Below, piece by piece: positions 11,114-33,519 of a stretch of DNA of 64,000 nucleotides. The translations under genes and the position numbers were made by a program. This stretch comes from Pseudorhodobacter ferrugineus DSM 5888 (GTDB taxonomy: Bacteria; Pseudomonadota; Alphaproteobacteria; Rhodobacterales; Rhodobacteraceae), in contig NZ_ATVN01000017.1 of NCBI RefSeq assembly GCF_000420745.1, positions 1 to 64,000 on the forward strand, given 5' to 3'. Each line of letters begins with the position of its first letter. Within the stretch, counting starts at the first letter, position 1. Below the pieces are notes generated by a model that was given only the letters and a program-made list of their open reading frames with translations, did not search any database and had not been told where the DNA came from.

Positions 11114-12367
11114 CTAACCGGCAGTGTCAAACAAGCCCGGTGTCATCTCTTCCCAAAAGTCAAAGATCGCGGCGGCGTTCAACGCGCTGGCCCAGCCATT
11201 GCGGCGGAAATCCTCGCGGTCCAGATCATTGGTCAACCGCCCCATGAACAGCCGCTTGTCAGCGTCGCGCTGCGTGGGGTTTCGCTGCATGACCGCCGCT
11301 TCGACCACCACAAACCGCCGCTTGCGTTCGTCGCGCGCGGCGAAACGGGCGTCTTCCTCGGCATCCTTGCGGGCCTGCGCCTCGGCCCGTTTGCGCGCGG
11401 CCTCCAACGCCTCGGTCGAAGGCGGTATCTGGGGGGCCGGTGCTGCCACCTCGAACCCGCCTTCCAACGCAGCGCGCAAATACCCGACCGGGCTTTTCAC
11501 ATTCTTTTGCCCGCTGACAAAGGTCAGCTTTTGCGTCACCGCCTCCTCGCCATGCTCCTGTATCCACTGCCGCGCCAAACGGTCTGACACCCCCAGCCCG
11601 ATCAGCCGCTTGTACGTCTCACTCGCCCGCACCGCATCCCCATCATCAATATCAAACATCGCAAGCTGCTTGTTCTCGCGGATCAAGAACCGCAATTCCG
11701 TCACCGCCCTGCCCTGCTTTTGAAACTCGGGCGTAATCTCGATGTTCGACGTGCGGTTCACCTCATCCACTGCGGGTTTGATGATCTTGGCATTCAGATG
11801 CTTGAAACTTTCGTAATAGGCGCTGTCCTCTACCCCCATCAACCGGCGAAACACCTCGATCGGCCACCATCCCGTGCTGCCCGTGCGCACAAACCGATAG
11901 CAATTTTCATAAAGCGCAAGCCCATGCCCCGAGGTAAACCGTTTCTGGATGTTCAGATTGATCAGCGCAAACACCTTGGGGTCATGCAGCTTTTCCGCCA
12001 GCGCAGGCGAATAGGCATATTCGCACACCCCCGATTTCAGCTTGGCATAGGACAGCAGGCTGGACACCCCCCACTCCTGCTTGCCCTTTTCGTCCAGCAT
12101 ATCCCATTCGGCCACCGTCTCGGCCAGCCCGCGCAAGGCCGCCCGCAGCGTCTCCATGTCATTAGAATTATAGCCGATCATCAGGCACAGCGTTCGTGCG
12201 TCAATCTGATGTTTGGTCTGGCTGATCAGCGTGTCATAGGCGTTCAGCAACAACACATTCGACAGCTTGCGCTGCAACAACGTCAGCTTGCCACTGACGT
12301 GAATGGCCGCGACATTTTTCTTAACCTCGGCCCGCCGCAGCGACCCTTTCAGCGCCTGTGTCTGCAT
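11114..12367 (-). CDS. repB: Plasmid replication initiator RepB (Rep_3-type)
   Basis: A 417-residue initiator. The N-terminal half carries the double winged-helix replication domain (LRRAEVKKNVAAIHVSGKLT, TLLQRKLSNVLLLNAYDTL, later GHGLALYENCYRF and WWPIEVFRRLMGVE). The C-terminal third is an Ala/Glu/Arg-rich coiled coil near residues 325-365. Proteins of this type bind 22-bp-class iterons and open the origin. Iterons of exactly that spacing lie 260-400 bp upstream of this gene. Divergent from parA-parB, it defines this as a RepB-type replicon as known in Roseobacter plasmids, distinct from RepABC. Full length and apparently intact. Confidence 0.9.
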   Translation of the reverse strand: MQTQALKGSLRRAEVKKNVAAIHVSGKLTLLQRKLSNVLLLNAYDTLISQTKHQIDARTLCLMIGYNSNDMETLRAALRGLAETVAEWDMLDEKGKQEWGVSSLLSYAKLKSGVCEYAYSPALAEKLHDPKVFALINLNIQKRFTSGHGLALYENCYRFVRTGSTGWWPIEVFRRLMGVEDSAYYESFKHLNAKIIKPAVDEVNRTSNIEITPEFQKQGRAVTELRFLIRENKQLAMFDIDDGDAVRASETYKRLIGLGVSDRLARQWIQEHGEEAVTQKLTFVSGQKNVKSPVGYLRAALEGGFEVAAPAPQIPPSTEALEAARKRAEAQARKDAEEDARFAARDERKRRFVVVEAAVMQRNPTQRDADKRLFMGRLTNDLDREDFRRNGWASALNAAAIFDFWEEMTPGLFDTAG

Positions 12368-12885: not shown

Positions 12886-12904
12886 AGGTTTCGCCGCGAA
12901 ACCT
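12886..12904. promoter_or_regulatory. parS-like site 1 (upstream of parA)
   Basis: AGGTTTCGCCGCGAAACCT, a perfect palindrome of 9-bp arms around a central C. It lies 112 bp before parA. The same palindrome recurs three more times within 2.6 kb and nowhere else that I noticed in the window. Confidence 0.8.
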
Positions 12905-13015
12905 CCTCGGCCCTTTCACCGCGGCTTGTTTTCTCCAGTTCCCCCTTTTAACTGGATGTGCCATAGTTTCGCGCATAGAAGCCAAAAAGCCGCACATGAC
13001 CAGAAAGTATGAGAC

Positions 13016-14404
13016 ATGAGCAAGAAGCCAGAAATCTCCCTCAACGCCTATCAAAACCTTGATCCGGCAAAGGCCGCCGAAAAACTGGGGCCCTCGGTTG
13101 ATACGACCCGATTCGCCAAAGCCGCCGCCTTTTGCGCCCGTGGCCGCGATGATCTGGCAAAACGCGGCTATGCGCCAGATGGTAAAAAGCGCCTGCGCCA
13201 GTTCTCGATATGGGAGATTACGAAATACCTGATCCCGGTCGCCCCTGCCCATTTCCGCCGCGTCCTTAAGGCCAATGAAAACCTGCCCCAGGGTGAGGGC
13301 ACCGCAGGCGCAAAATGGTTCACATTGGACGAGGTGCTAACTCTGCGTGACCATTTTGCCGCCGAAGGGTCCGCTGCCAAGGAATACAAACCCTACCGCC
13401 CCAAAGGCCAACCGGCCAAAATCTGCGCCGTGGCCAACTTCAAGGGCGGGTCGGGCAAAACCACCACCTGCGCCCATCTGGCGATGGCCGCGGCCCTCGA
13501 TGGGTACAAGGTGCTGGTGATCGACCTCGACAGTCAGGCCTCGATGACGTCGATCCTTGGGGGGCAGGTCGAGGATGAATGGAAAACCGTCTTCCCCCTC
13601 ATCGCCAAGGATTACGCCCTTGCCGTGCAGGCCGAAAACCGGATCCGCGAGGCGGGCGATCTGCCGCCCCTGCCCCTTGACGAAACCCTGACCGAGGCGT
13701 TGACGGTTTCGCCGCGAAACCTCATCCAGAAAACCCACTGGTCAAATATCGACCTGATCGGCGCGCAACTGAACCTCTATTGGGCCGAATTTCAAATCCC
13801 CGTCTGGCGCATGGGCCTGCGCTCTTGGTCGCTGTGGGATGCGCTGGGGAACTTCCTGACCAACGAAGGCATTCTTGACGACTACGACATCGTCTTCCTC
13901 GATACCCCGCCCGCGCTCGGTTATTTGACGATTAATTCACTGGCTGCCGCCGATATTCTGCTGGTGCCGCTCGGCGCGTCCTTTCTTGAATTTGACTCCA
14001 CAGGCCGGTTTTTCGACATGCTCTATTCTACCTTTGCCAGTATCGAGGAAGGCGAAAACGCGCAGCGCCGCGCCTTGGGCCTGACAGAGGTAAAGTTTGA
14101 ATGGGACGTGGTGCGCGCCATCATCACCCGCTTTGATGCCGCCCAGCAAACCGATCTGGCCAATGTGATTCAAGCCTATTTTGGTGATTTTATGACACCA
14201 TACCGGCAGGAATTTACCGCATTGGTGGGGCAGGCGGGCGAACAGGTGAATGGCATCTATGAGGCGGATTACCGCGATTTCAACCGTGACACCTATCTGC
14301 GCGGCCGTGAGGCGTTTGACCGGACCTATGCCGAATTCAAACAGCTTTTGATTGGCGCATGGTGGCGTGATGTACAGGCAGAAAAGGAAAATGCAGATGG
14401 CTAA
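13016..14404 (+). CDS. parA: Partition ATPase ParA
   Basis: A 462-residue Walker-type partition ATPase. Residues 1-135 form an N-terminal DNA-binding/regulatory region typical of large plasmid ParA proteins (RQFSIWEITKYLIP). The deviant Walker A is FKGGSGKTTT at ~142-151, Walker A' is VLVIDLDSQASMT at ~180, and Walker B is IVFLDTPPALG. ATP-dependent ParA gradients move ParB-parS complexes to daughter cells. The gene overlaps parB by 8 bp and contains parS-like site 2 within its coding sequence. The N-terminal extension means it probably also represses its own promoter, close to site 1. Confidence 0.93.
   Translation: MSKKPEISLNAYQNLDPAKAAEKLGPSVDTTRFAKAAAFCARGRDDLAKRGYAPDGKKRLRQFSIWEITKYLIPVAPAHFRRVLKANENLPQGEGTAGAKWFTLDEVLTLRDHFAAEGSAAKEYKPYRPKGQPAKICAVANFKGGSGKTTTCAHLAMAAALDGYKVLVIDLDSQASMTSILGGQVEDEWKTVFPLIAKDYALAVQAENRIREAGDLPPLPLDETLTEALTVSPRNLIQKTHWSNIDLIGAQLNLYWAEFQIPVWRMGLRSWSLWDALGNFLTNEGILDDYDIVFLDTPPALGYLTINSLAAADILLVPLGASFLEFDSTGRFFDMLYSTFASIEEGENAQRRALGLTEVKFEWDVVRAIITRFDAAQQTDLANVIQAYFGDFMTPYRQEFTALVGQAGEQVNGIYEADYRDFNRDTYLRGREAFDRTYAEFKQLLIGAWWRDVQAEKENADG
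13705..13721. promoter_or_regulatory. parS-like site 2 (inside parA)
   Basis: GGTTTCGCCGCGAAACC, 8-bp arms around a central C, within the parA coding sequence (encodes part of the VSPRNL segment). The codons fit the protein, so the palindrome is accommodated by codon choice. Confidence 0.75.
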
Positions 14405-15485
14405 ACGTAAAAAGCTCGAAGCCCCTGACCCGAACGCATTGGCGGAAATGGAGGCAGGTTTCGCGGCGAAACCTATCCCTGACCGGCTGGGCCTGTCCTC
14501 GGCCCCCATCACGCAGGTCGCGGGTGATGCCGCCCGCGCCGCGACCCCGCTGGACACCGAAACCCGCATCACGATGGCCAAGGATGGCCGCGATGCAAGC
14601 GCTTGGCGCAAGGCGTTAGAGGAGGGTCGGGTGCTTTTGGACCTGCCCTTGGATGCGATCGACATGTCGCACCTGATCCGCGACCGCATGGTCGTGAGCC
14701 GAGAAGAGTTGGACGAACTCAAATCCTCGATCCGCAGCAATGGCATGCGCGCCCCGATTGAGGTCGCAGACCTTGGGGCAGGGCGGTACGGCCTGATTTC
14801 GGGTTGGCGGCGGATGACGGTTCTGGGCGAACTTTCTGCCGAAGACGGGGCAGCCTTTTCGACCACCAAGGCGCTTTTGCGTAGCCCCGATCAGATGGGC
14901 GCTGTCTATACCGCGATGGTCGAAGAAAACGAATTGCGCGCCCAGCTTACCCCTTATGAACGCGGCCGCATTGCTGTGGTTTCTGCCGATCAGGGTGCGT
15001 TCAGCTCTGCCGACCACGCGATTGACACGATTTTTGCGGCGGCGTCTAAATCCAAGCGTTCCAAAATCCGCAGCTTTGCCCAGATCCATGAAGAGCTTGG
15101 CGATATGCTGAAACACCCGACCGAGATGTCTGAACGCAACGGTTTGCGCCTTGCCCATGCTTTGCGTCAGGGCATGGTGTCAGACATCCGCACCGCCTTG
15201 ATCCGCGATCAGGGCAGGGGGCCTGCCGCCGAATGGGCACTGATCGAACCCTTTGTCGCCGCGGCCGAGGCGATGGAGCGGGAACCTGAACGCGGGGGCC
15301 GCCCCAAAGCGCCGAAATTTGCCTATTCCGCAGCCAAGCCAAGGCCGCTTGCCAATGGCGTGACGATGGAAATGCTGCGCCATGAAGACGGGTTTTCGGT
15401 GCGTCTGCGCGGCCCCCATGTTGATCGAGAACTGGCCGATCTGATGATGGATGAATTGAACCGCTGGCTGGGTAAGCTGCCCTAG
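14397..15485 (+). CDS. parB: Partition protein ParB
   Basis: 362 residues from the ATG at 14397 (MAKRKKLEAPD), preceded by AAGGAAA; ATGs at 14391 and 14352 are alternatives. A ParB/Spo0J N-terminal nuclease-like domain follows at ~80-170 (DLPLDAIDMSHLIRDRM, IRSNGMRAPIEVADL, GLISGWRRMTVLGEL, VEENELRAQLTPYERGR) and a helix-turn-helix region at ~180-230. The C-terminal part (LANGVTMEMLRHEDGFSVRL) has a strand-helix appearance. ParB binds the centromere, nucleates spreading and stimulates ParA. The GERR/CTP-binding motif of chromosomal ParB is represented by SGWRRM, a plasmid-type variant. parS-like site 3 lies within its first 80 bp. Confidence 0.9.
   Translation: MAKRKKLEAPDPNALAEMEAGFAAKPIPDRLGLSSAPITQVAGDAARAATPLDTETRITMAKDGRDASAWRKALEEGRVLLDLPLDAIDMSHLIRDRMVVSREELDELKSSIRSNGMRAPIEVADLGAGRYGLISGWRRMTVLGELSAEDGAAFSTTKALLRSPDQMGAVYTAMVEENELRAQLTPYERGRIAVVSADQGAFSSADHAIDTIFAAASKSKRSKIRSFAQIHEELGDMLKHPTEMSERNGLRLAHALRQGMVSDIRTALIRDQGRGPAAEWALIEPFVAAAEAMEREPERGGRPKAPKFAYSAAKPRPLANGVTMEMLRHEDGFSVRLRGPHVDRELADLMMDELNRWLGKLP
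14456..14474. promoter_or_regulatory. parS-like site 3 (inside parB)
   Basis: AGGTTTCGCGGCGAAACCT, a perfect palindrome with 9-bp arms, the reverse complement of site 1. It falls in the parB reading frame (GFAAKP). Confidence 0.78.
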
Positions 15486-15502
15486 GGTTTCGCCGCGAAA
15501 CC
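15486..15502. promoter_or_regulatory. parS-like site 4 (after parB stop)
   Basis: GGTTTCGCCGCGAAACC directly overlapping the end of parB, in the 21-bp gap before the converging integrase gene. Confidence 0.78.
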
Positions 15503-15506
15503 GGAG

Positions 15507-16550
15507 TTAGCCCAGCAAATCGGTCGCGGGGTTATCCTCGATTTCTACATCGGCATAGTATTTTTGGGCTTGTATCGCCGAGCGGTGGAGCGACAGTTTC
15601 ATCGCCGCTGCCAGCGGTGCGCCATCCAGTGCGGCCTGCGTCAAAAACCCCGCGCGCAGCCCGTGCGGGGTGGCATAATCCACCGGCAGGTCCGCCAACA
15701 CCAAACGATGCCGCAAAATCACGCGGATCGCATCGGGGGCCAGACGGCGGGGCAGGGCGCGGTCGGATTTGGATACGGGACGAAACAGCGGCCCATCGGT
15801 GATGCCTGCCCCAATAATCCATCCCATAACCGCCCGTGCCGCGCGCCCTTTTAGCGGCAATTTCGGTGCATCATCGCGCTTGGTGGTTTTGGTTTCTAAC
15901 AGGCGGACCCAAAGCAGGCCTTTCGCGGCGAAATCCTTTGTCCCGATATCGTCACGGTAAAGCGCCGTAACCTCGCTGCGCCGCCGCCCGCCAGACCCGA
16001 AAGCCAGCATCAAAACCGCGCGGTCGCGCAGGCCGCGCAAGCTGTCGTCACAGGTCGCCACCAGCTTTTCCAACACCTCGCGGGTGATAGGGCGGGGCGA
16101 TTTCGGCACGCGGGGTTTGGCATTGGCGCGCCGCGCTTTGACCCGTGCTTGGGCAACCAAAGGCGCCGCAAAGGGCGAGGCGAGGTTTTTCATCCGGTGA
16201 AAGGCCCGCCAGCTTGCGATCTTGCGGTCCAAGGTTGCGGGGGCAGGGCAGGCCAGCGTGCGGCGCAGGCCAAGGGTTATTAACCGGCTTGCGGCATCAT
16301 GGGCCGATGTGCCGAACCTGTCTGTCAGATCAATCGCGTGGTCCAGCACAAAGCGCAGGGCGACGCGTTCATCTTCGGGCCAGTGCAATGGCTGGTCAAA
16401 CACTGCGGCCTTCCACGCGGCAATATAGGCCAAGTCGCGTTCCCAAGCGCGCAAAGTGTTGTCTGGCGTACCCCGCCGATAAAGGTCACTTAGCGCGGCT
16501 TCATCCTCTGGGGTTAGGGCAAAGGAAAGGGGTAGGGCAGGGGATTTCAT
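15507..16550 (-). CDS. Tyrosine recombinase (plasmid-type site-specific integrase)
   Basis: A 347-residue phage-integrase-family recombinase. A core-binding N-terminal SAM-like domain (~15-130) precedes the catalytic domain, with Arg in GGRRRSEV (~189-193), HGLR (His296, Arg299), a second His in LHRS (~322) and Tyr nucleophile in QKYYAD (~331). All five catalytic positions are present, so it should be active. Converging on parB, it is likely the replicon's own dimer-resolution or integration enzyme. Two inverted repeats directly upstream are candidate core sites. A degenerate parS-like core (TTTCGCGGCGAAA) lies inside the gene at 15921-15933. Confidence 0.9.
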   Translation of the reverse strand: MKSPALPLSFALTPEDEAALSDLYRRGTPDNTLRAWERDLAYIAAWKAAVFDQPLHWPEDERVALRFVLDHAIDLTDRFGTSAHDAASRLITLGLRRTLACPAPATLDRKIASWRAFHRMKNLASPFAAPLVAQARVKARRANAKPRVPKSPRPITREVLEKLVATCDDSLRGLRDRAVLMLAFGSGGRRRSEVTALYRDDIGTKDFAAKGLLWVRLLETKTTKRDDAPKLPLKGRAARAVMGWIIGAGITDGPLFRPVSKSDRALPRRLAPDAIRVILRHRLVLADLPVDYATPHGLRAGFLTQAALDGAPLAAAMKLSLHRSAIQAQKYYADVEIEDNPATDLLG

Positions 16551-17532: not shown

Positions 17533-18192
17533 TTAGCCAAAGGGGTAAACGCCGAATAAAGCCGGATGTGCCCAGATCAAAACGATATAAATTGCAGCCC
17601 CAATAGCTGTGCGCATTATGGCGTTGGTTGAAAGTCGGGGGCGGGGCCAAGGGGTGGTCTGCGCACGCATCGTGACCCACGCCGCCCCCATATTGCGCTT
17701 GCGGCGTCGATCAATCATCACGATCCCCAATAGCGCAAACAGGCAAAAACTGCCAAACATCAACACATGAGCCAGATCGCCGTTTGGGACAATATGTACA
17801 CCTGCCCAAAGGGCCAAAACCACCAAAAGCGGATGTCGCATCCAACCGATGAGCCCCGGTTGTGCGGGATTAAATTCAGCGTTCCGCGCGCCCCCAAAGG
17901 AAAACGGGTTTGGCCTGCCCAGCGTAAGGGCGGCGATCAAACAGACCAACGCCATACCGACTTGTGGCACCCATAATTGCCACGGCGCCCACGCCCACAG
18001 CGCGATATAGGGTGCGCGCCCGGCAGCGATGATCAACCAACCCAATGCGGCAATCGACAGCGCCGAATAAAGCATCAAAAACATCGGCATGCCAATCCGC
18101 AGCTCTATCGGTTGGCGCATCGCAGGCCGCAGCGGAATGGAATGCGTGGCAAGAAAGGCCACCGCTGCAAGGATATACTCTGACCAGCCCAT
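17533..18192 (-). CDS. nnrU: NnrU family membrane protein
   Basis: A 219-residue, six-helix integral membrane protein of the NnrU/MISS family (isoprenylcysteine methyltransferase-like fold). Visible marks are LATHSIPLRP at the N-terminus, the conserved GWMRHPLLVVLALWAGVHIV segment, and FALLGIVMIDRRRKR before the terminal helices. NnrU genes accompany NO and nitrite metabolism in Rhodobacter and Paracoccus; the exact reaction is not established. It starts 3 bp after the nnrS stop, so the two are one operon. The stop overlaps the non-coding side of the DUF454 gene. Confidence 0.85.
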   Translation of the reverse strand: MGWSEYILAAVAFLATHSIPLRPAMRQPIELRIGMPMFLMLYSALSIAALGWLIIAAGRAPYIALWAWAPWQLWVPQVGMALVCLIAALTLGRPNPFSFGGARNAEFNPAQPGLIGWMRHPLLVVLALWAGVHIVPNGDLAHVLMFGSFCLFALLGIVMIDRRRKRNMGAAWVTMRAQTTPWPRPRLSTNAIMRTAIGAAIYIVLIWAHPALFGVYPFG

Positions 18193-18195
18193 TGT

Positions 18196-19392
18196 TTAAC
18201 CTTTGGCCCGAGGGCGCAGCAATGCCGGACCGTAAATGACCGACAGGCCCAAAAAGCCAAGGCACCACAGCCCCCCCGCCAAATCATAAAAGCCCGATGC
18301 CTGCGCCGGAAAAACCCCCGCCAGAAACCGCGCCACAACAGAACCAAGAATGGCGGCATAAATCAGCAGCGTGCCTTTGCCTGCCGTAAGGGCTTGTCCG
18401 GTATGGCCCAAAGTGGCGCGTGTCATCACCGCAACGGTCATGGTGCCAATCGCGCCGGCCATCCAAAGATGCTGGGCTGCAATTGTGCCAAATTGGTCGG
18501 GCCACAGGATCGCCACGCCAATCGCCAGCGCGCCCAAAGGGACAAAGCTGTAGGCCAGATGCAAGATCCAAACCAACGGTTCGCGCCGCGCATGCCAGCC
18601 GCGCCACCGCCACAGCCGTACCGCTTGTAAACCGGCACATAAAATCAGCAGCAAACCTGTCGCAGGCAGGGCCGGAGCCACAACCCACAGCCCAATCGCT
18701 ACGAGCGTGACAAGCACTGCGGCCTTGTCCACGGCCCCCATCGGCGCGGGGCGCGCGGGCAATTGCGCCTTAACCAGCCAGTTGCGGGTAAAAGAGGGTA
18801 CGATCCGCCCGCCGATCAGCACGATCAACATGAGTCCAGCGCCCAAACCAATTCTCAGCCCGGCCCCCGATGCCGCATAAATCCCCTGCGCGGCCTCCCA
18901 ATGAAACACCGCATTGCCAAGGATCAAGACTGACAGGATGGCCAGAACCACCAAGTTTTTCCAATTGCGCCCCAAGATGATTTCGCGCGCAAGATAGCCC
19001 CAGAGTGTGACCATCGCCGCAAGGTCCAAAATGGCAATCACCATAGGCGGCCACCCTGCCGAAAACATCACAGCCCCCCGGCCCATCAGCCAAAGCCCGA
19101 CCAGCCCGGCCAAGGGCCAGCCAACAACGGGCAACCGCCCTGACCAATTCGGCACAGCCGTCAGCAAGAACCCCCCGACAACGGCCGACACATAGCCAAA
19201 CAAAAATTCATGCGCGTGCCAGGATACAGGGTCAAAGGCCGTTGGCAGCGTCAGGCCACCCGCCAGCATCGGCACCCAAAGCACCATTGCCACAAAGGCC
19301 CAGAGGGCCGCGCCCAGAAAGAACGGGCGAAACCCGTAAGTTAAAATTGCGGGGCCGCGCCATGCGCGCATTTGCTCAGCTGTCGTGGTCAT
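18196..19392 (-). CDS. nnrS: NnrS family heme/copper membrane protein
   Basis: 398 residues with about 12 membrane helices. N-terminal LTYGFRPFFLGAALWA, SWHAHEFLFGYVSAVVGGFL (His pair) and NWSGRLPV match NnrS; a later HLWMAGAIGTMTVAVMTRAT also fits, with His residues likely binding heme. NnrS is known to relieve nitrosative stress by protecting against NO-derived dinitrosyl iron complexes, rather than turning over nitrite itself. It heads an nnrS-nnrU operon near the nir-nor genes. I found no full NNR box upstream in the 348-bp gap. Confidence 0.9.
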   Translation of the reverse strand: MTTTAEQMRAWRGPAILTYGFRPFFLGAALWAFVAMVLWVPMLAGGLTLPTAFDPVSWHAHEFLFGYVSAVVGGFLLTAVPNWSGRLPVVGWPLAGLVGLWLMGRGAVMFSAGWPPMVIAILDLAAMVTLWGYLAREIILGRNWKNLVVLAILSVLILGNAVFHWEAAQGIYAASGAGLRIGLGAGLMLIVLIGGRIVPSFTRNWLVKAQLPARPAPMGAVDKAAVLVTLVAIGLWVVAPALPATGLLLILCAGLQAVRLWRWRGWHARREPLVWILHLAYSFVPLGALAIGVAILWPDQFGTIAAQHLWMAGAIGTMTVAVMTRATLGHTGQALTAGKGTLLIYAAILGSVVARFLAGVFPAQASGFYDLAGGLWCLGFLGLSVIYGPALLRPRAKG

Positions 19393-19734
19393 AGGGCCTC
19401 TAAGGATGCTTTTGCGGGTGTGTTCGAGTTTTGTTGATACTGGCGTCGGTCAGGGTCGCGCCCAGTCCTACTGCCCTTCACGATCCACCGGATCATGCCC
19501 CGCAGGGCCAAGGATATGGGCGGTTTGGGGGTCAGTGTCCTTGCCATTTTGGCGCTCTGCGACAATTTTCATTGCATCGAAATCTAAACCTGTTAATTGG
19601 TATTGTAAATACCTATTTAAGGGATGAGACCGCACGCAAGCCTGACCTTTTTACAGATTTTGGATTGCGGATGTTGTGCTTAACCCTAGCCCTGTAAAAA
19701 ATGAATAATTTTCACCAAGATCAAACCACAGGAT
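19393..19734. other. Divergent intergenic region nnrS/HTHP
   Basis: About 340 bp containing the promoters of nnrS and of the HTHP gene. AT-rich DNA around 19590-19640 is a plausible promoter zone. TTCACCAAGATCAA at 19711-19724 resembles half an FNR site but is too close to the HTHP start to be a safe activator site. No gene is evident. Confidence 0.5.
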
Positions 19735-19740
19735 ATGATC

Positions 19741-19974
19741 ATGACAAGCTGGCTTCCGACTTTGATCACCAAGACGCCCGAAGAGGGTTATAACCTTGCT
19801 GTAAAGCTGTCGCGCATGGCGATAAAGCTGACCCAGCCCGATGCCGTGGCGCGCGACCGTATGCGCCCTGAATATGCCGACGATGCCGCCGCCCTGATCG
19901 CTGTAAGCCAGGTCGTCGCTACCCATTTCGCCACCGTGGCCGCAGCAAATGACCATTGGAAACATGTGTCATGA
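19741..19974 (+). CDS. Hexameric tyrosine-coordinated heme protein (HTHP)
   Basis: A 77-residue protein (from the ATG at 19741) that matches HTHP, characterised from Silicibacter (Ruegeria) pomeroyi. Features are the N-terminal SWLPTLITKTPEEGYNLAVK, the heme-ligand tyrosine at position 45 (RPEYADDAA), and VVATHFATVAAANDHWK at the C-terminus. Choosing M at 19741 puts the tyrosine at 45, as in the known protein; an in-frame ATG two codons upstream is less well spaced from AGGA. HTHP has peroxidase and catalase activity in vitro. It overlaps the next gene by ATGA, so they are translationally coupled. Its place beside nnrS and nir genes suggests a role with NO or peroxide. Confidence 0.88.
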   Translation: MTSWLPTLITKTPEEGYNLAVKLSRMAIKLTQPDAVARDRMRPEYADDAAALIAVSQVVATHFATVAAANDHWKHVS

Positions 19975-20228
19975 CGCCGGTTGAACTTGGCGAAAACGGC
20001 TTTGTGGTTGCCGCCGAAAGTATCGCTGACGCATTCGGACTTGCGGCATCGGCTGTTCAAGGTTTGATGCAGTCCAATGCGATCACGTCGCGCTGTGAAA
20101 AGGGTGTGGGCGAGGATGAAGGGCGTTGGCGGTTGACGTTTTATTACAACAACCGCGCCTTTCGCCTGACGGTTGACGGTGCGTCGCAGATCGTTGGCCA
20201 AGCGCGGTTTGACGTTGCCCGCCGCTAA
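19971..20228 (+). CDS. DUF6522 family protein
   Basis: 85 residues, starting at the ATG that overlaps the HTHP stop. The N-terminal half is a small helical domain with a winged-helix look (ESIADAFGLAASAVQGLMQ), followed by GRWRLTFYYNNRAFRLTVDG, two beta strands typical of this family. No heme or metal motif is evident. The tight HTHP-DUF6522 coupling suggests a shared function, perhaps as regulator or assembly partner. I can say no more from sequence. The family number is from memory. Confidence 0.7.
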   Translation: MTPVELGENGFVVAAESIADAFGLAASAVQGLMQSNAITSRCEKGVGEDEGRWRLTFYYNNRAFRLTVDGASQIVGQARFDVARR

Positions 20229-20395
20229 ACAGCCCCCCCGCAGGGCTATGCGTTTCGCGCCGCGTTGACCGCCTTCGCGGCCTTAAGCGTGGTTGTGGCG
20301 CCGACTGGCATACATGACGCCAAAGTGACAGGACAGTAACATCACGTCATCGGGGCAGACTTTTCATGCCTGTTTCCTTGCGATAGACAGTCGCG
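20229..20395. other. Intergenic before pqi operon
   Basis: Contains the end of the HTHP unit and the start of the pqiA promoter region. I do not see a strong terminator or a known operator. Confidence 0.4.
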
Positions 20396-21052
20396 ATGAC
20401 CAAACAAGACCGTCTTAAACACGCTGCCCCCTTTGCTGATCTTCGGGATTTGGTGGCGTGCCCTGTGTGTGACACACTGGCCCGACTTTCGTCGGTGCCG
20501 CTGGGGGGGCAAGGCCGGTGCAAGCGGTGCCACCATGTTTTGGCCATGCCGCGCAGCAATGCCATGACGCGGATCGTGATGTTGGCGGTGACGGGTGCGA
20601 TCCTTATGGTTGGTGCCGTCAGCTTTCCCTTTCTGACGATTGAAACCCATGGTTTGCGCCAACAAGCATCGGTGCTGGATACAATTTTGGCCTATTCAGA
20701 TGGGCTTATGGTGCCGCTTTCGCTGGCAATGGCGGCGCTTATCGTGGTCCTGCCGTTAATGCGCCTTGTGGCCATTTTGTACACGGTTGCGCCGATGGCA
20801 TTGGGGCATCACCCGATCCGCGGGGCCACGCAGGCGTTTCGATTGGCCGAAACCCTAAAGCCTTGGGCAATGGCCGAAGTGTTTATCGTCGGGGTCGCGG
20901 TCGCGCTTGTCAAAGTTGGCGGACTGGCAACCCTGACAATAGGCCCTGCCTTTTGGGCTTTTGCGGCCCTCGTTCTTATCACTGTTGTTAACGACAACCT
21001 CATGAGTAGCTTGATCATATGGAAAACGCTGGAAGCGCGCGGCAGTATCTGA
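20396..21052 (+). CDS. pqiA: PqiA-like inner-membrane protein, first half
   Basis: 218 residues: a zinc-ribbon-like start (CPVCDTLARLS, then CKRCH) followed by four membrane helices (about 60-80, 100-125, 130-150 and 170-200). This is one half of the PqiA/YebS (LetA) fold, which in E. coli is a single protein with two such halves. Here the two halves are separate genes overlapping by 34 bp. PqiA works with the MCE protein PqiB to carry lipids between membranes. The ATG at 20396 is preceded by only a weak ribosome site. Confidence 0.85.
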   Translation: MTKQDRLKHAAPFADLRDLVACPVCDTLARLSSVPLGGQGRCKRCHHVLAMPRSNAMTRIVMLAVTGAILMVGAVSFPFLTIETHGLRQQASVLDTILAYSDGLMVPLSLAMAALIVVLPLMRLVAILYTVAPMALGHHPIRGATQAFRLAETLKPWAMAEVFIVGVAVALVKVGGLATLTIGPAFWAFAALVLITVVNDNLMSSLIIWKTLEARGSI

Positions 21053-21654
21053 CCGCCCGTGATGTGGGTTTGGTCAATTGCACGACATGCGGCAGGGTCA
21101 ATCCGGCTGGCGTGCCGCTATGCGTCCGCTGCGGGGCGACCCTTGCCAGCCGAGACACAAAAAGCCTGCAAAAGGTTTGGGCGTGGTGGGTTGCGGGCGT
21201 CATCGCCTTTGTGCCTGCAAATGTCTACCCGATGCTAAAGACCGCCACGCTGGGCAGCGAAAGCGAAAGCACGCTGTTGGGCGGGATATTAGAGCTGATC
21301 CATCACGGGTCTTTCGGGATTGCGGCCATTGTTTTCTTTGCCAGCATTGTTATCCCCGCCAGCAAATTTCTGGCGATTGCCTATCTTGCTTTGGGTATCG
21401 GCAAACAAAGCCGCATCACCACGCATCGTCGACACCAGATTTATGAGGTGGTCGAATTTGTCGGCCGCTGGTCCATGATCGACGTGTTTGTCGTTGCTAT
21501 TCTGACGGCCTTGGTCCAGCTGGGGTCGGCGGCGAGCATCCATCCTGGAATTGCGGCAGTCAGTTTTGCCCTTTCCGTCGCTTTTACAATGCTCTCGGCC
21601 CAAAGTTTTGATGCAAGGCTGATCTGGGACGCTGACAAGGACCACGCCATATGA
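21019..21654 (+). CDS. pqiA: PqiA-like inner-membrane protein, second half
   Basis: 211 residues with its own CxxC pairs (NCTTCGRVNPAG, then LCVRCGA) and four membrane helices. The second cytoplasmic segment holds EVVEFVGRWSMIDVFVVAIL, a hallmark of the PqiA C-terminal half. It overlaps the first pqiA by 34 bp and pqiB by 4 bp (ATGA), so the three are translationally coupled. The split form is common in alphaproteobacteria. Confidence 0.88.
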   Translation: MENAGSARQYLTARDVGLVNCTTCGRVNPAGVPLCVRCGATLASRDTKSLQKVWAWWVAGVIAFVPANVYPMLKTATLGSESESTLLGGILELIHHGSFGIAAIVFFASIVIPASKFLAIAYLALGIGKQSRITTHRRHQIYEVVEFVGRWSMIDVFVVAILTALVQLGSAASIHPGIAAVSFALSVAFTMLSAQSFDARLIWDADKDHAI

Positions 21655-23735
21655 CACTTCCCGATATTCCTGAAATGGACGTACGTCCGGCCAAACGGTC
21701 GCCTTGGCGCAATTTGTCACTGGTTTGGCTGGTGCCGATCCTTGCGTTGATCGTGTCGATGGGCGTCGCTTGGCAAAGCTATAGCAACAAAGGCACCCTG
21801 ATCACGATCACCTTTAAGGACGCAGCCGGCATTACACCCAAGGATACCACCATCCGGTTCAAAGATGTTATCATCGGTGCGGTCGAGGATGTGAATTTTT
21901 CCAAAGATATGTCGCGTGTCGAAGTTTTGGCACGCATCAATAAGGATGTCGCGGCAACCTTTAATGTGGACACCCTGTTTTGGGTCGTTCGCCCCGAAGT
22001 AAGCGCGCGTGGTATCAGCGGGCTTTCGACGGTTTTGTCCGGTGTCTATATCGACAGCGCTTGGACACCCGTCGAAGATTCAAGCATAGATGCGTTCGAT
22101 GGCCTGTCCGAAACGCCCCTGATCCGGCCTGGCCATGAAGGGACACGCGTCAAGATCCGGTCCAAGAACGGGTCCAGCCTGACACCCGGCGCGCCTGTGT
22201 TCTTTCGCGGTATGGAAGTTGGTCGGCTTGATACACCGCGCCTGTCCGATACAGGGGACAGCACGGATGTCGAGGCCTTTATCAACGCACCGTTTGACAA
22301 ATTCCTAACCACCGACTCGCGGTTTTGGAACGTGTCGGGGTTCTCGGTCACGCTTGGGCCGGCGGGTCTTAACCTGAATGTTGCAAGCCTCGGGTCGTTG
22401 CTGACGGGGGGTGTGGCCTTTGAAAACATCGTTTCGGGTGGCGCGCCCGTGACCAATGACACCATGTTCCGGCTGTTTGCAGATGAATCCGCTGCGCGCG
22501 ATAGTATTTTCACTCAGCTTAGTGCAAATTCTGTGACGATGTCAGTGATTTTCAACGAATCCGTCAGCGGATTGGCATCCGGCGCTCCGGTTGAATTTCG
22601 GGGCCTTAGGGTGGGTCAGGTTTCAAGTATTGGTGCGTTTATCGTAAAAACGCCGGTGGGCCGGACGGTCAACATGCGGGCGCTGGTTTCGATTGATCCG
22701 CAGTCGCTTGGGCTGGAGGCCGACACAAGCGCCGAGGCAACACGGTCGTTTATCGACGGCTTGGTGTCTGAGGGTCTGCGCGCGCGTCTGGCGACAACCA
22801 GTATTTTCAGCGCCGCCCTTAAGATCGAGCTTGCTGATGTGCCGGATGCCACAGCTGCAACTTTACGTGACGATGCCGATGGCACGCCCATTATTCCAAG
22901 CGTTGCCTCTGACCTGCCCGATTTCACTGCAACGGCCGAAGGCGTACTGGAACGCGTGAACAAGCTTCCGATCGAAGACGTAATGAACCAAGCGATTTCG
23001 CTTATGGCCTCAATCGAGGCGATTGCGTCGGCCAAGGGCACGCAACTTGCGCCTGATGCCATTTTGGGGCTGATCGAAGATGCGCGCGGGCTGATCGGCA
23101 AAGAGGATACCCAAGCCATTCCGGGTGAATTGCTGGGCGTCATCGCCGATTTGCGCAGTATCGTTGCCGAGTTGAAAGACCGTGGATTGGTGGACCAATT
23201 GTCCAGCGCTTTGACAAGTCTGGATGTGGCCGCAGGCGATATTGCAACCGCCTCTGGTGACCTGCCAAAGCTGGTCGAAGATCTCCGTGCGATTGCAACC
23301 AAGGTTAATGATCTGAAAGCAGAAGAGCTGATTGCCGCTGTGACGCGGGTGATGGACAGCGCGGATGCCTTGATCAGCACCGACGGCGCCAAAAGCATAC
23401 CGCCCGCGCTTGCATCTGCGTTGACCGAAGTTCAGGCCGCATTGCGCGACTTGCGGAATGGTGGCGCGATTGAAAACACCAATGCAACGCTGGCCTCGGC
23501 GCGCGAAGCCGCGGATGCGGTTGCCGAGGCTGCCAAGACCTTTCCGGATGTAACCGCGCAGCTGGAGAGTGTGATTTCAAAAGCTGATGCGCTTGTGTCA
23601 GCCTATGGCGCGAAATCCACCTTTAATTCCGAAACGCTTGATTTGTTGCGCGAGCTGAAAACGGCGGCACAATCCGTTGCCAAACTGGCCCGCACGATTG
23701 AACGCAACCCAAATTCCCTTATTTTAGGACGTTGA
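21651..23735 (+). CDS. pqiB: PqiB, MCE-domain lipid transport protein
   Basis: 694 residues. A single N-terminal helix (LSLVWLVPILALIVSMGVAW, ~26-45) anchors three MCE domains: about 50-140 (DAAGITPKDTTIRFKDVIIG), 165-260 (GSSLTPGAPVFFRGMEVGRL) and 290-400 (SGLASGAPVEFRGLRVGQV). The remaining ~290 residues are Ala/Leu/Asp-rich helices that form the needle/tube seen in PqiB. This links the inner membrane PqiA to the outer membrane, forming a lipid conduit. The long helical tail contains several imperfect repeats (ADALISTDGAKSIPPAL and ADALVSAYGAKSTFNS), matching repeated helical segments. Confidence 0.9.
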   Translation: MTLPDIPEMDVRPAKRSPWRNLSLVWLVPILALIVSMGVAWQSYSNKGTLITITFKDAAGITPKDTTIRFKDVIIGAVEDVNFSKDMSRVEVLARINKDVAATFNVDTLFWVVRPEVSARGISGLSTVLSGVYIDSAWTPVEDSSIDAFDGLSETPLIRPGHEGTRVKIRSKNGSSLTPGAPVFFRGMEVGRLDTPRLSDTGDSTDVEAFINAPFDKFLTTDSRFWNVSGFSVTLGPAGLNLNVASLGSLLTGGVAFENIVSGGAPVTNDTMFRLFADESAARDSIFTQLSANSVTMSVIFNESVSGLASGAPVEFRGLRVGQVSSIGAFIVKTPVGRTVNMRALVSIDPQSLGLEADTSAEATRSFIDGLVSEGLRARLATTSIFSAALKIELADVPDATAATLRDDADGTPIIPSVASDLPDFTATAEGVLERVNKLPIEDVMNQAISLMASIEAIASAKGTQLAPDAILGLIEDARGLIGKEDTQAIPGELLGVIADLRSIVAELKDRGLVDQLSSALTSLDVAAGDIATASGDLPKLVEDLRAIATKVNDLKAEELIAAVTRVMDSADALISTDGAKSIPPALASALTEVQAALRDLRNGGAIENTNATLASAREAADAVAEAAKTFPDVTAQLESVISKADALVSAYGAKSTFNSETLDLLRELKTAAQSVAKLARTIERNPNSLILGR

Positions 23736-23736
23736 T

Positions 23737-24306
23737 ATGACCCTACGTATCGCTGCCCTCTCGCTTGCAGCCGCATTGCCATTGATTGCCTGTGGCGACA
23801 CAAACGCCCGCTTTCCGATTATGTCTGATGCGGCCCAAGCGTCAAAAGTACGGGTTTCTGTGCGCACCATCGAGGTGCGCGACGTGTCATTGCCAGCCTA
23901 TGCTGCTGCGTCTGAAATTGTGGTGGAACAAGACGGCGGCGCGCTTTTTGTCGTGCCAAAATCGATCTGGGCCGATGATCCTGTGCGTGCTGTTACGGGG
24001 GCCTTGTCGCGCAGCCTTGATGTACGATCGACGGCCTCGGTGGCATCTGAACCGTGGCCCTTGGCCGAACCCGCCGACGTGCGCGTCGAGGTTCGGATTG
24101 ACCGCATGATCGCCAAAACCGACGGTTTGTTTGAACTTAGCGGTCAGTTTGCAATCGCATCGCCCGATGGCATGGTGCGCGAGTCGGTGGAACGCTTTGC
24201 TGTCACCGCACCGATGGCGGATAGCGAACCTGCAACGGTCGCGAGGGCCACGGGCGCTGCGATTGATAGTTTGGCGGATGTGATCGTGACAAAGCTGAAA
24301 CGGTAA
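23737..24306 (+). CDS. pqiC: PqiC-type lipoprotein
   Basis: 189 residues with a lipobox (LPLIACGD, Cys19), so it is an outer-membrane lipoprotein. The remainder matches the ABC-transport auxiliary/PqiC family (VRTIEVRDVSLPAYAAASE, later IDSLADVIVTKLKR). PqiC docks PqiB at the outer membrane. One base separates it from the pqiB stop, completing a four-gene operon. No lipid cargo can be deduced. Confidence 0.85.
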   Translation: MTLRIAALSLAAALPLIACGDTNARFPIMSDAAQASKVRVSVRTIEVRDVSLPAYAAASEIVVEQDGGALFVVPKSIWADDPVRAVTGALSRSLDVRSTASVASEPWPLAEPADVRVEVRIDRMIAKTDGLFELSGQFAIASPDGMVRESVERFAVTAPMADSEPATVARATGAAIDSLADVIVTKLKR

Positions 24307-24357
24307 AAGCGTTTGCAGCAAGGCCGGTTCTGTTGGCCTGTGCCGGGACGCAGGCTG

Positions 24358-24612
24358 TCACGCTTCGGCCTGTGCAATCAATGACCGCACCCATCTTGCC
24401 GACGCATAGGTCGCAGGAAGGCCCAAGGGCAGGCACCACCACAAAGCAGCAATCGGGGATAATGCGGGCAGGCCTATGGCTTGGCCCAAAAGGCCCAGCA
24501 AAAACAGATTGATGGCGACGGCGCCAGTGGCAAAGGGCCACAACAGCAGCCCTAATTTCCACAGGTTTTTAGTGGCTGGTGCCGTCGCTGAAGGTGATTT
24601 TATTCCAGACAT
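24358..24612 (-). CDS. Two-helix membrane protein downstream of nirN
   Basis: 84 residues (ATG at 24612) with two hydrophobic helices: residues ~15-45 (LWKLGLLLWPFATGAVAINL) and 50-72 (LSPIAALWWCLPLGLPATY). It overlaps the nirN 3' end by 44 bp in another frame, so it is probably translationally coupled to it. Similar short membrane proteins sit at the end of heme d1 gene clusters in other roseobacters, from memory. It may aid membrane localisation or export of heme d1 components, but nothing in the sequence proves it. Its end converges on pqiC. Confidence 0.7.
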   Translation of the reverse strand: MSGIKSPSATAPATKNLWKLGLLLWPFATGAVAINLFLLGLLGQAIGLPALSPIAALWWCLPLGLPATYASARWVRSLIAQAEA

Positions 24613-26128
24613 TATACTTTCCCGAAGGTTTGCGCATGGGCAGGCGTTTGACCTCTTCAAAGGTCGCGGCATCATAGACGATCACCGCGCCATTATTTTC
24701 CCAAATCGACACAAGTGCATAGTGGCCATCCTTGGTAAATTCGGTATGCGCCACCGTTTTCCCCGGTGCAGGGTCAAGCGTGCGGACGATTTCCAAGGTT
24801 TCTTTGTCGATGATATGCATCTTGCCCTTGTTCGGGCCAAAGAACACATCGGCCCAGACGTAGCCGGAATTTTCATGGCTGCGCAGAAAAAATCCCGGTC
24901 CTTCCATCTGAATGGTTTTGATCAGCTTGAAGGTTTCAAGGTCTATGACCGACAGCACACCGTCTTGTAAATGCGGGGTCGCCATCACGCGGCGGCCCTG
25001 ACTGGTCCATGTAATCCCTGACCCCAGATGCGGCATACCGGGCAGCGGCAGTTCGGCAATCTCGCGGCCAACATCAAGGTTCACGACCACGCCTTTGTCA
25101 CCTTCGCGGTTGGTGCCAATCAGGTTGCGATAATCTGGGGTGAAAAAGAAGTCATCCAAAGGGGCGTTGATTTTGATCCGGCGGCGGGCAAACAGACCGC
25201 TTTCCGAGACCAGCTTTTCCTCCATACCCGTCTCATGGCTATGGACGAACCCGTCATAGAACGGGCCTGCATCGGGGTCGGTTGCCACTTCCCAAATTTC
25301 GGGCACATCCTTTAGGGCCAGCACAAAACTGCTGCGCTGTGGTGCTTGGTACACCGCCGACACGCGACTTTCGGTGCCATCATGGCCTGCCACATCCATC
25401 ACGCGGGCCACGCGCAAATCGTCGGTGGACAGGATGGTCAGAGTGCGCGGCAGGTAATTGGCAACGGCCAGCCATTTGCCATCATTGCTCATCGCGATGT
25501 TGCGCGAATTGAGGCCGGCCCGCACGCGGCCCACCTGTTGCAGCGACCAGATGTCATATTTCTGCACCCAACCATCACGCGACATGATGAACACATAGCG
25601 CCCATCGGGGCTGAACTTTGGCCCGCCATGTACGGCAAAGGGGGTTTTAAAGCGGTCGAGGACGGCGAACGTATCGCCATCCAGCACTGACACATGATGA
25701 TCGCCGGTTTCCACCACCAAGGTGATATTCATCGGATCGGCGGTAAAAACCGGCGCAGGGGCGGGGGTGTAACCTGTATCCAAACTGCGGGTGGATTCGA
25801 TATCCGTGACAGTCCAGCTTGGCGCCTCGGCCAGCGGCGTCGCAATAAACGCGGCCACTGCGGTGATATCTTCAGCGCTCAAAGTACCCTTGAACGCGGG
25901 CATCTGCGTGGCAACACGCCCGCCCGCAATAATCGCCTCCAGCCCCTCGCCCTTTAGTCGCCCAAGGCTTTCAGGGATCAGCGCGGGGCCAGTGCCGCCC
26001 AAACGGGTTTCGGCATGGCACGATGCGCATTGATCTGCATAGATCATCGCGCCATCCGGTCCCGCATGGGCGGGGCCAGTCAGGGCGCTGGTGGCAAGCA
26101 GGCTATAGAAAACGATGGGCCGGATCAT
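24569..26128 (-). CDS. nirN: NirN, heme d1 biosynthesis/dihydro-heme d1 dehydrogenase
   Basis: 519 residues. A signal peptide (~22 aa) is followed by a cytochrome c domain ([12 protein letters not shown] near residue 34, axial Met candidate in ATQMPAFKG) and an eight-bladed cytochrome cd1-type propeller ([17 protein letters not shown] onward). NirN is a periplasmic paralogue of NirS that catalyses the last step of heme d1 formation and hands over the cofactor. It overlaps nirJ by 26 bp. Intact and of the usual length. Confidence 0.9.
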
Positions 26129-27317
26129 GGCTTTTGCCTCGGAAAGGGGTCACGGTTAGGCGGGCGGCATCGTCGATGCCAATCTCGGCATTCGACAGAT
26201 AGCAGGCGGGGTCTTCGGCCCAGGGATCACCCGTCACTTGCAAGGCGCGAATGCGGGTATTGCCGCCGCAAACCGCCTTGAACGCACAATCGCCACAGCG
26301 ACCTTTCAAGGGCCGCGGGCGCTGGCGCAAGGTGGCAAGCATCGCATCAGACCCTGTCCATAGGGATGAAAACCTGTCCGTTTTCACCGACCCCACAGTG
26401 TAGTCGGACCAATAGGTATCGGGATGAACCTTGCCTTGCGGGTCAATATTGGCCACGCCAAGGCCCGACGAATTGCCCCCCCAAGATTCCAGATGCGCGC
26501 GCACATGGGCGGTTTGTTCAGGTGAGAAATACTCTGTCACCCATTGCAGAAAATAGACAGCATCGGCATCATTATTGCCCGTCACCACTTCTAAATCCTT
26601 GCCGTTTTGAATGGCCTCCCAAGCGCGGGCAATCAGCACATCCATCGCGCGGCGGGTATGGGAATGTTCGGTATCTTCGCCGCGATGCTTGTCGCCCCGT
26701 CCCGCATAAACCAGATGCGACAGGTAGAATTTATCCACCCCCTCGGCCTCGCATAGATCCAGCATTTCGCCCAAGTGATGGCCGTTTTGTTCGGTGATGG
26801 TATAGCGCAAACCAACCTTGACGCCGCGCGATTTGCAGGCGCGCACACCGGCCATCGCCTCGTCAAACGCGCCCTCGACCCCGCGAAACCAGTCGTTCGT
26901 GGCACCGATCCCGTCAATGGAAATGCCGACATAATCAAAGCCCAGATCAACAATCCGGTCGATGTTTTCCGCAATCCGCGTGCCATTGGTTGACAGCGAC
27001 AAATGCCGAAAGTTCAGCGCCTTCGCCCGTTCGGCCAGAGTGAAAAAGTCAAACCGGCTTAACGGTTCGCCGCCCGACAGGATCAGCGCGGGAATGCCAA
27101 AGGCTTTCAGGTCATCCAACACGCCAAGCGCCTGTTCGGTCGAAAGCTCCCCCGGAAAGGGCACATCGGCCGAGGTGGTATAGCAGTGGCGGCATTTCAG
27201 GTTGCAGGTGCGTGTCAGGTTCCAGATTACAACGGGTTTCACACCGCCGGCACTGACGCGTTTGCGTACAGGCGTTGGTGTCACCAACTCGCGCATATAT
27301 TGGGTCAGTCGAAACAT
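26103..27317 (-). CDS. nirJ: NirJ, heme d1 radical SAM enzyme
   Basis: 404 residues. The radical SAM CxxxCxxC motif lies at the N-terminus ([12 protein letters not shown]), then LILSGGEPL and [12 protein letters not shown]-terminal auxiliary Fe-S SPASM-type domain ([14 protein letters not shown], later PACYLSN) binds a second cluster. NirJ removes the two propionate side chains from didecarboxysiroheme to form the ring ketones of heme d1. It lies 3 bp before nirH. Confidence 0.93.
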
Positions 27318-27320
27318 ATC

Positions 27321-27803
27321 TCAGCTTCCTCCGCTAATCCGCATTCCGGTCTTTTTCAGGATGCGCGTGGAATATAAAATGTCATTGGAACGGCAGGCAT
27401 CACCCAAAATCTCGGCTATCAGCTTGCGTTTTTCTTCAACTTCGGCGCGGGTGTTGCCGTGGATCATGGCAAACAGGCAATAGGGCCAACCCGGCGCGCG
27501 TGGCCGCAAATAACTGTGCGAGACAAAGGGCAAAGCGCCGACTTTGTCGCCCAAAGTCTCGGCCTTCGTATCATCCACATCCCAAACGCTCATCCCGTTT
27601 GCAAGCATCCCCAAAGCATAGTGATTGGGCGCAAGCGCAATGCGGCGAATGATACCGCGGGCCTGCATATCGGCCATCCGCGCGATCACCTCATCCTCGG
27701 TCAACCCCAGCTGCCCCGCAACAATCGCATAGGGTGACGCGGTCAACGACAACCCGCTTTGGGTGGCCGCAATAATACGGCGTTCTGTGGCATCTATCGT
27801 CAT
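27321..27803 (-). CDS. nirH: NirH, siroheme decarboxylase subunit (Lrp/AsnC type)
   Basis: 160 residues; Lrp-like winged helix (RRIIAATQSGLSLTASPYAI, EDEVIARMADMQARGIIRRI) and an AsnC-type ligand domain (NGMSVWDVDD, later FVSHSYLRPRAPGWPYCLFA). The Lrp-like fold here is an enzyme: the NirDLGH complex decarboxylates siroheme at C12 and C18. It overlaps nirG by 4 bp. G versus H is assigned by position in the operon. Confidence 0.85.
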   Translation of the reverse strand: MTIDATERRIIAATQSGLSLTASPYAIVAGQLGLTEDEVIARMADMQARGIIRRIALAPNHYALGMLANGMSVWDVDDTKAETLGDKVGALPFVSHSYLRPRAPGWPYCLFAMIHGNTRAEVEEKRKLIAEILGDACRSNDILYSTRILKKTGMRISGGS

Positions 27804-28273
27804 GCCTGCACCCGAAATCCCACAAAAAATTCGCGCAGCTTGGGAAAGCGCAGCACGGCCAGACCTGTTTCTGCCTCTATCTCATCCGCCACGCGGCCAA
27901 TTCCTTTTTCGGTTTCACAGGCCAGCACGAACCACATGTTCAGCGGATGTGTCCGTTCATAATTATGCGCGACCTCGGCGTGCGCATTGACCAAAGTCAC
28001 GGTCGCGTCAAAATCAGCCTGGGGCACGGCCATCGCGCACAAACAGAACGCCCCCCCCATCGCCGCCGCGTCATAGAACGGGCCAAAGCGGGTAATGGCG
28101 CCTATTTCTCGCATATTCCGAATACGCTCGATCAGGTCATCCTCGGTAACGCCAAGCGCAGCACCCGCCTCGGCAAACGGGTGTTTTGAGATTGGAAACC
28201 CGTCTTGTAGTGCGTTCAAAATCGCGCGGTCTGTCGCGTCCAAGGCATCATCGGGCAAGGTTGTGCGGCGCAT
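27800..28273 (-). CDS. nirG: NirG, siroheme decarboxylase subunit (Lrp/AsnC type)
   Basis: 157 residues of the same Lrp/AsnC-derived fold (DATDRAILNALQDGFPISKH, TRFGPFYDAAAMGGAFCLCA). It belongs with NirDL and NirH as the didecarboxysiroheme-forming complex. It shares an ATG/stop junction with nirDL (overlap 1 bp) and with nirH (4 bp). The catalytic histidine/arginine set typical of NirL/H is less clear here, as expected for G-type subunits. Confidence 0.85.
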   Translation of the reverse strand: MRRTTLPDDALDATDRAILNALQDGFPISKHPFAEAGAALGVTEDDLIERIRNMREIGAITRFGPFYDAAAMGGAFCLCAMAVPQADFDATVTLVNAHAEVAHNYERTHPLNMWFVLACETEKGIGRVADEIEAETGLAVLRFPKLREFFVGFRVQA

Positions 28274-31559: not shown

Positions 31560-31590
31560 GGCGTCTCTCATCTGCTTGGGGTGGGGGTGG

Positions 31591-31616
31591 TCGGGGCCGC
31601 AAAGGCGCGGCCCCGA
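31591..31616 (-). promoter_or_regulatory. Intercistronic hairpin between nirS and nirE
   Basis: TCGGGGCCGC and its perfect complement (10-bp stem, 6-nt loop) lie between the nirS stop and the nirE start. It is not followed by a U-run on the minus strand. Such a GC-rich stem probably stabilises the nirS mRNA 3' end or attenuates transcription into the d1 genes, allowing much more NirS than biosynthetic enzymes. That is inference. Confidence 0.6.
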
Positions 31617-31626
31617 AACCGTTGGC

Positions 31627-33463
<1,837 letters not shown>

Positions 33464-33519
33464 GGCAATGCGGCGACAGCTTTGGCAGGGTCGCGCAATC
33501 ACGGTGCAAAGGCGTCTCC

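Follow-up and report, generated by a model that had tools for sequence, protein, structure and literature searches.

The chromosomal ParB–parS consensus is TGTTTCACGTGAAACA, and in Bacillus subtilis a parS site lies within spo0J. Here we examine a family of odd-length palindromes in and around the partition genes parA and parB of Pseudorhodobacter ferrugineus DSM 5888, in a stretch of 64,000 nucleotides (hereafter the window) that is part of the 78-kb contig NZ_ATVN01000017.1. These dyads have the GTTTC/GAAAC half-site in common with chromosomal parS, as an earlier note on this DNA had recognised, but chromosomal parS has an even length of 16 bp and places GTTTC 4 bp from GAAAC, whereas 5 bp separate them here and 6 bp in a sister class. 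Comparison with relatives makes it very probable that these dyads serve the plasmid's own ParABS system as its parS (centromere) sites.

In the repABC plasmids of Rhodobacterales and Rhizobiales, according to the passages of PMC9040568 on these sites, some parS lie in coding sequence, at the 5' end of repB, in later open reading frames and in cas genes, and Rhodobacterales repABC groups are reportedly told apart by bases of the palindrome (passages of PMC5613091). They resemble the present locus in that a plasmid ParAB (RepAB) from Alphaproteobacteria is accompanied by several palindromic sites, there parS, close to the module; differences in their palindrome track compatibility groups (PMC9040568, PMC5613091). 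In those passages the repABC palindromes have an even length of 14 nt, and the pair of groups under comparison differs by an arm base, whereas the present family has a Rep3-type replicase, an odd dyad, sites deep in parA and, in relatives, in rep, and variable spacing. KorB of RK2 is described in the relevant passages of PMC11790492 as a ParB-family clamp dependent on cytidine triphosphate (CTP) and as a long-range repressor working with KorA; the oligonucleotide of its operator OB has an odd, G-centred TTTAGC-G-GCTAAA, close to the TTTCGC-S-GCGAAA found here, and the ParB fold predicted for our locus matches KorB. The arms are nevertheless TTTCGC here and TTTAGC in OB, so the dyads are not KorB-OB sites by their arms. 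For SCP2, the passages of PMC12260392 on ParT describe a centromere site in the gene of its own DNA-binding protein, seen by chromatin immunoprecipitation sequencing; there it is a single 18-bp inverted repeat in parT and ParT is CTP-independent, whereas here there are several sites, also in parA and rep, and a ParB of predicted CTPase fold.

Intragenic parS and odd ParB-family operators therefore already have precedents. The earlier note was right that copies lie within both parA and parB, and that odd length sets them apart from the even chromosomal and repABC sites, but it overstated the rarity of the arrangement, for which SCP2 parT and the repABC sites are precedents, and an odd G/C-centred dyad was already known for KorB. 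The open-licence papers searched yielded no description of this palindrome as parS, of rep, parA and parB sites together, or of spacing as a changing feature, and an earlier description is possible. Nor did they yield parS sequences for a RepB-type replicon; the palindrome passages of PMC4148953, PMC4572655 and PMC4511512 are silent on parS. The name "RepB-type" follows the usage in the part of PMC9025767 that deals with replicon naming, while the equation of RepB-type with Rep3 is our own and goes beyond that naming.

The window contains four perfect odd dyads of the form GGTTTCGC-N-GCGAAACC, 5' of parA, within parA, within parB and directly 3' of the parB stop, each where the earlier note had placed it. 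The features of the module are as follows.
11114 to 12367, minus strand: rep, a Rep3-type (RepB-type) initiator (Pfam Rep3_N 1.9e-19, Rep3_C 7.1e-15).
12886 to 12904, no strand: site 1, dyad AGGTTTCGC-C-GCGAAACCT with 9-bp arms and centre C, 111 bp 5' of the parA start codon.
12955 to 12997, no strand: a further conserved element (ATGT ... ACAT) lying 3' of site 1 and 5' of parA, from the consensus of 35 upstream regions.
13016 to 14404, plus strand: parA, a Walker ATPase of 462 aa with an N-terminal extension (Pfam AAA_31 2.3e-30; CbiA 7.9e-18).
13705 to 13721, no strand: site 2, 8-bp arms and centre C, within parA, in frame, codons for VSPRN.
14397 to 15485, plus strand: parB, a predicted CTPase-fold ParB of 362 aa (ParB_N 1.3e-6), its start overlapping the parA stop (ATGGCTAA).
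14456 to 14474, no strand: site 3, 9-bp arms and centre G, within parB, in frame, codons for GFAAKP.
15486 to 15502, no strand: site 4, 8-bp arms and centre C, its first base directly 3' of the parB stop codon.
15507 to 16550, minus strand: a tyrosine recombinase (integrase), after parB.

Allowing up to two mismatches, GTTTCGCNGCGAAAC has six matches in the 64-kb window, four of them exact, against 0.54 expected, and none of 100 dinucleotide shuffles reached six. The earlier note had held that a dyad common across the host would argue against a centromere. It is rare: the 3.43-Mb assembly holds five exact cores, namely the four module sites and one on another contig, with none for the reversed-pattern control. 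This single extra core (C5:88882; L001:1501-1515) begins directly after a stop codon, like site 4 after parB. The host genome has no exact copy of the form with a 2-bp spacer, and chromosomal parS TGTTTCACGTGAAACA is separately present on contig C6 (two exact copies and one with one mismatch). Site 3 is indeed the reverse complement of site 1, but the difference comes down to a single central base, G instead of C. A degenerate fifth core in the integrase (15920-15934, two mismatches), listed earlier with the four, is probably due to chance and was rejected: in seven loci with an integrase homologue covering the position (two of them copies of one sequence, and one only 28% identical), the best match up to 30 nt away has 5 to 7 mismatches.

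The two par genes have the features of ParA and ParB. The ParA translation carries the Walker motif FKGGSGKTT, as in Walker-type ParA ATPases, and matches NCBIfam partition_RepA at 5e-63, below the curated cut-off; parA and parB overlap by 8 bp. The AlphaFold2 model of ParB (predicted local distance difference test score, pLDDT, 87) has Foldseek and VIA matches to Noc, ParB and KorB, and G-x-R-R and E-N-x-x-R are invariant in 58 aligned ParBs, so that homology and predicted fold point to a ParB with an N-terminal CTPase-type domain and a helix-turn-helix domain. The ParA model is poor (pLDDT 59) and no conclusion was drawn from it. With its Rep3 initiator divergent from parAB the locus belongs to a RepB-type replicon; a repABC replicon was considered and rejected, the replicase being Rep3-type and on the opposite strand, with ParA and ParB under the RepA/RepB equivalog cut-offs. 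A promoter scan gave no sigma-70-like or terminator-like match upstream of parA.

To follow the dyads through relatives, the pattern GTTTCGC-N(0 to 8)-GCGAAAC was scanned with at most one mismatch. The first set comprised 162 oriented cassettes, of which one is that of the window, 14 come from named plasmids and 147 from further genomes. Left out were L037 and L038 (beside a DnaA-like gene, ParA 35%, with other palindromes or none) and, as copies of the window, L025 and L035, the loci L039, L045 and L095. With spacer 1 there were 219 sites (161 of them exact), spread over 83 cassettes, and with spacer 2 there were 168 (159 of them exact), spread over 84; every other spacer from 0 to 8 gave 0 to 2 sites each, and the reversed-arm control six and none for spacers 1 and 2. 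A second, separate scan, aimed at ParB relatives, retained 80 loci; of these, 62 were new to the first set in the sense of sharing no identical parA stretch, so near-identical strains may remain. Here spacer 1 accounted for 236 sites, spacer 2 for 33, and spacers 0 and 3 to 6 for none (control: two for spacers 1 and 2 together). The 236 odd sites fall mainly at fixed places: 53 near parB nt 58 and 43 near parA nt 690 (with four elsewhere in parB and one elsewhere in parA), 44 after parB, 31 in rep or within 250 bp of it, 30 upstream of parA and 30 in other places. Close ParA homologues (E up to 1e-150) occur in 147 of the 394 family genomes sampled, and the nearest ParB relative among the 80 loci, at 79% identity, is from a metagenome-assembled Pseudorhodobacter genome. 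Across the loci compared, the dyads form a conserved DNA element in a family of RepB-type (Rep3) replicons from Rhodobacterales.

Four site classes result from combining the outer base, which is G..C or T..A, with a spacing of 1 or 2 bp between half-sites. A Rep3 homologue stands beside 72 of 81 cassettes of the window's ParA identity group and beside none of the 81 of the sister group (ParA identity about 66-70%); the clades were cut at 70.6% ParA identity, which puts the sister-clade cassette L140 on the wrong side in the codon, mutual-information and co-residence counts. In the window's group exact odd sites are mostly flanked by G..C or A..C and even ones by G..C, while in the sister group even sites are mostly T..A and odd sites are T..A in 8 of 10. 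Thus the outer base follows clade, and both spacings occur in both clades. On a tree of 219 ParBs, built without the site-bearing N-terminal stretch, odd and even spacing are separated by eight changes; when odd is set against even plus mixed there are again eight. Well-supported branches require at least five of these; the mean after shuffling is 67.5, and no shuffle in 500 was as low. (A second tree, of 74 ParBs, contains the sister-clade row L140, and its seven changes were not used.) On this tree, site class follows ParB but has switched repeatedly.

No even site was seen within parA in either the 162 cassettes or the 80 loci, and L252, L255, L256 and L258 keep an odd site in parA beside otherwise even sites, as expected if one added base would break the frame. 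L278 and L283 also keep an odd site in parB beside even ones, hence such relics are not confined to parA. No single ParB residue explained spacing in the window's clade, where mutual information was low (best 0.34 bits). In the sister clade, residue 186 is H with PRARRSK in the three odd ParBs (L125, L127, L136) and Y with SRAKRSK or a close form in the five even ones listed; as a spacing determinant H186 is only a lead, for it also occurs in 14 of 68 even ParBs.

The explanation that survives best beside a centromere is that the dyads are operators of a transcriptional regulator, whether ParB as a KorB-like repressor or an unrelated repressor. KorB is after all a ParB-family silencer that acts from such operators (in the passages cited; PMC11790492), and site 1, judged by eye in 35 relatives, is the best conserved block in the 260 bp upstream of parA. 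However, sites within parB, deep in parA (nt 690), in the 3' portion of rep and beyond the end of parB are ill placed for promoters, and the site classes track the phylogeny of ParB itself; we consider a purely operator role improbable.

Confinement to the module bears on a second alternative. A hand tally of the 14 whole plasmid records placed 34 of 35 exact odd sites within the rep-parAB module, a clustering at the par locus. REP (repetitive extragenic palindromic) elements and Rickettsia palindromic elements are palindromic repeats, and a mobile repeat of that sort inserting into genes would account for a short palindrome in both coding and non-coding DNA. The odd form, however, occupies orthologous positions instead of being scattered, has a single stray exact copy in the 3.43 Mb of the host and varies in spacing with ParB; a REP-like origin was therefore rejected for it and is very unlikely.

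The even form is distributed otherwise. Of the five exact even sites in the plasmid records, two are near the module of the sole plasmid from the sister clade; the other three belong to two large plasmids and lie far from the module there. In a subset of the 394 family genomes the 16-bp GTTTCGC-RY-GCGAAAC is dispersed, with 17 copies on the 3.8-Mb contig of one genome (G043) and up to 22 per genome, against 0 or 1 for reversed-pattern controls. Among loci L191-L210 (G043 and G140), 14 of the 17 G043 copies have, by eye, a common one-sided flank like CCAGAGATTT, and several genomes with the scattered form (e.g. G265, G327, G351) are outside the 147 with a close ParA homologue. It is possibly a separate dispersed element or the site of a chromosome-binding protein; given the scatter and, in this one case, the asymmetric conserved flank, a similar palindrome may serve some unrelated protein or element. 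Three sister-clade loci (L117, L148, L154) combine odd or near-odd sites with one even site just 3' of parB, and their host genomes carry many scattered even sites (G043 19, G419 17, G271 6).

Site 4 ends 4 bp before the integrase gene (15507-16550), and the dyads might be core or accessory sites of that recombinase. This was rejected as well and is no more credible than a mobile repeat, because integrase homologues were found in 8 of 298 loci (many too short to reach the gene), whereas nearly all cassettes have sites.

The sites inside genes are preserved at the level of DNA. Forty-four parA genes of the 162 cassettes encode VSxRN at residues 231-235, and the Arg codon is CGA in all 44, against 77 of 1361 (5.7%) in the rest of these genes; GTT encodes Val in all 44 (12.6% elsewhere) and TCG encodes Ser in 43 (34.6% elsewhere). 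Where the last residue of the motif is Asp, CGA occurs in 0 of 20 genes. Site-less parA genes mostly have different residues at that position, with L047 and L064 keeping VSSRN at two mismatches from the site. The parB site near codon 20 occurs in two reading frames, as GFAAKP in 31 cassettes and as EFRRET in 28, with Phe spelled TTC in 31 of 31 of the former and TTT in 27 of 27 of the latter (one further has Tyr); the change between these two odd frames is needed once on the ParB tree, and eight cassettes have a 16-bp GFARET form. Of 43 homologous rep genes whose 3' end is complete, 13 also have a site within the gene, spelled VSRRN, VSPRN or GFAAKP, while the window's own rep has none with up to one mismatch. 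Codon choice and reading frame thus argue that DNA, not protein, is what is conserved at the intragenic sites. The recurrence of VSPRN and GFAAKP at fixed positions could suggest conserved peptides, but the rare fixed codons, the two parB frames, the varied spellings in rep and the other residues in most site-less parA genes contradict a protein constraint, which was rejected and has next to no likelihood.

Replicons that share a host offer a further view of the classes. Co-residence was scored in the 22 genomes found among the matches listed, of 35 with two or more ParA matches (149 cassettes assigned to genomes). All 22 pairs had one cassette of each group, so that same-clade pairs numbered 0 against 11.0 expected (0 of 20000 permutations as low). 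By spacing, 16 pairs were odd with even, three even with even, one odd with odd and one even with mixed, and in one pair a cassette had no site; in none of the 21 comparable pairs of a RepB-type and a sister cassette did both co-residents have a site in common once the outer base was included. This pattern fits incompatibility within a class.

Several points weigh against reading the dyads as centromeres. The entire case is comparative. Near-copies (L023/L041, L030/L053) were kept in the 162 cassettes, and the counts are therefore not independent. By the definition used, ten of these cassettes have no site, 15 combine both spacings and four are tied; of the 80 loci in the second set, seven are mixed and one lacks an exact site. 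One odd site lies outside the module, between two genes of a Haematobacter plasmid, and one further odd core is present in the host outside the module. In some genomes copies of the spacer-2 palindrome are dispersed over contigs at a distance from parAB; together with the three of five even sites in named plasmids that lie far from the module, this means that the even class is not purely centromeric. RepB-type cassettes are mostly odd and sister ones mostly even, so that clade and spacing are confounded and site differences between co-residents partly follow descent. The matches listed stop short of the weakest, and a sister-sister pair could therefore be missed. Nevertheless, the centromere role suggested by the earlier note is strongly supported by comparison, through the confinement of odd sites to the module, their fixed positions in relatives and site classes that follow the ParB phylogeny.

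If the dyads are parS sites, we infer ParB binding, CTP loading, autoregulation and a function in compatibility along the following lines. ParB, probably a clamp of the CTP-dependent type, would load at each 15-bp site and slide outward, and four loading sites within 2.6 kb would make the parAB module the partition complex that ParA moves. Two of these loading sites are written into parA and parB, and in some relatives one more into rep, so ParB would spread over rep-parAB and the module itself would be the centromere. A larger number of sites would raise loading and may stop transcription of the operon from dislodging the complex. Acting from site 1 and from the sites within genes, ParB would presumably also lower expression of its own operon; such repression is plausible because site 1 is best conserved upstream of parA in the 35 relatives and the second conserved element, possibly a ParA operator, adjoins it. 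Specificity would come from the outer base, which is G..C here but mostly T..A in the sister family, together with the 1- or 2-bp spacer between GTTTCGC half-sites, and class differences would keep co-resident replicons apart.

We extend this, tentatively, to a two-bit centromere code, which we regard as quite possible without yet favouring it. Specificity would evolve through the outer base and through a one-base insertion or deletion between half-sites (15 to 16 bp), shifting the helical phase of the two ParB contacts and so making co-residents compatible. The parB site, in a variable N-terminal stretch, would have followed the change in several lineages, and the parA site, where one added base is a frameshift, would have been lost or left as an odd relic.

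Beyond the module, the contig carries denitrification-related genes at 17533-35547: NnrU and NnrS, together with a NirJ heme d1 maturase that scores above cut-off and a NosR-like regulator that scores below it.

The analysis supplies candidate parS sequences for RepB-type replicons. Should ParB load at the dyads, the centromere of a widespread plasmid family would consist of its own replication and partition genes, and partition-complex assembly, transcription of the module and replication control would be physically coupled. The natural set of cassettes, with its four classes, repeated spacing changes and relics, makes both a change of ParB specificity via half-site spacing and the compatibility of co-resident replicons directly testable.

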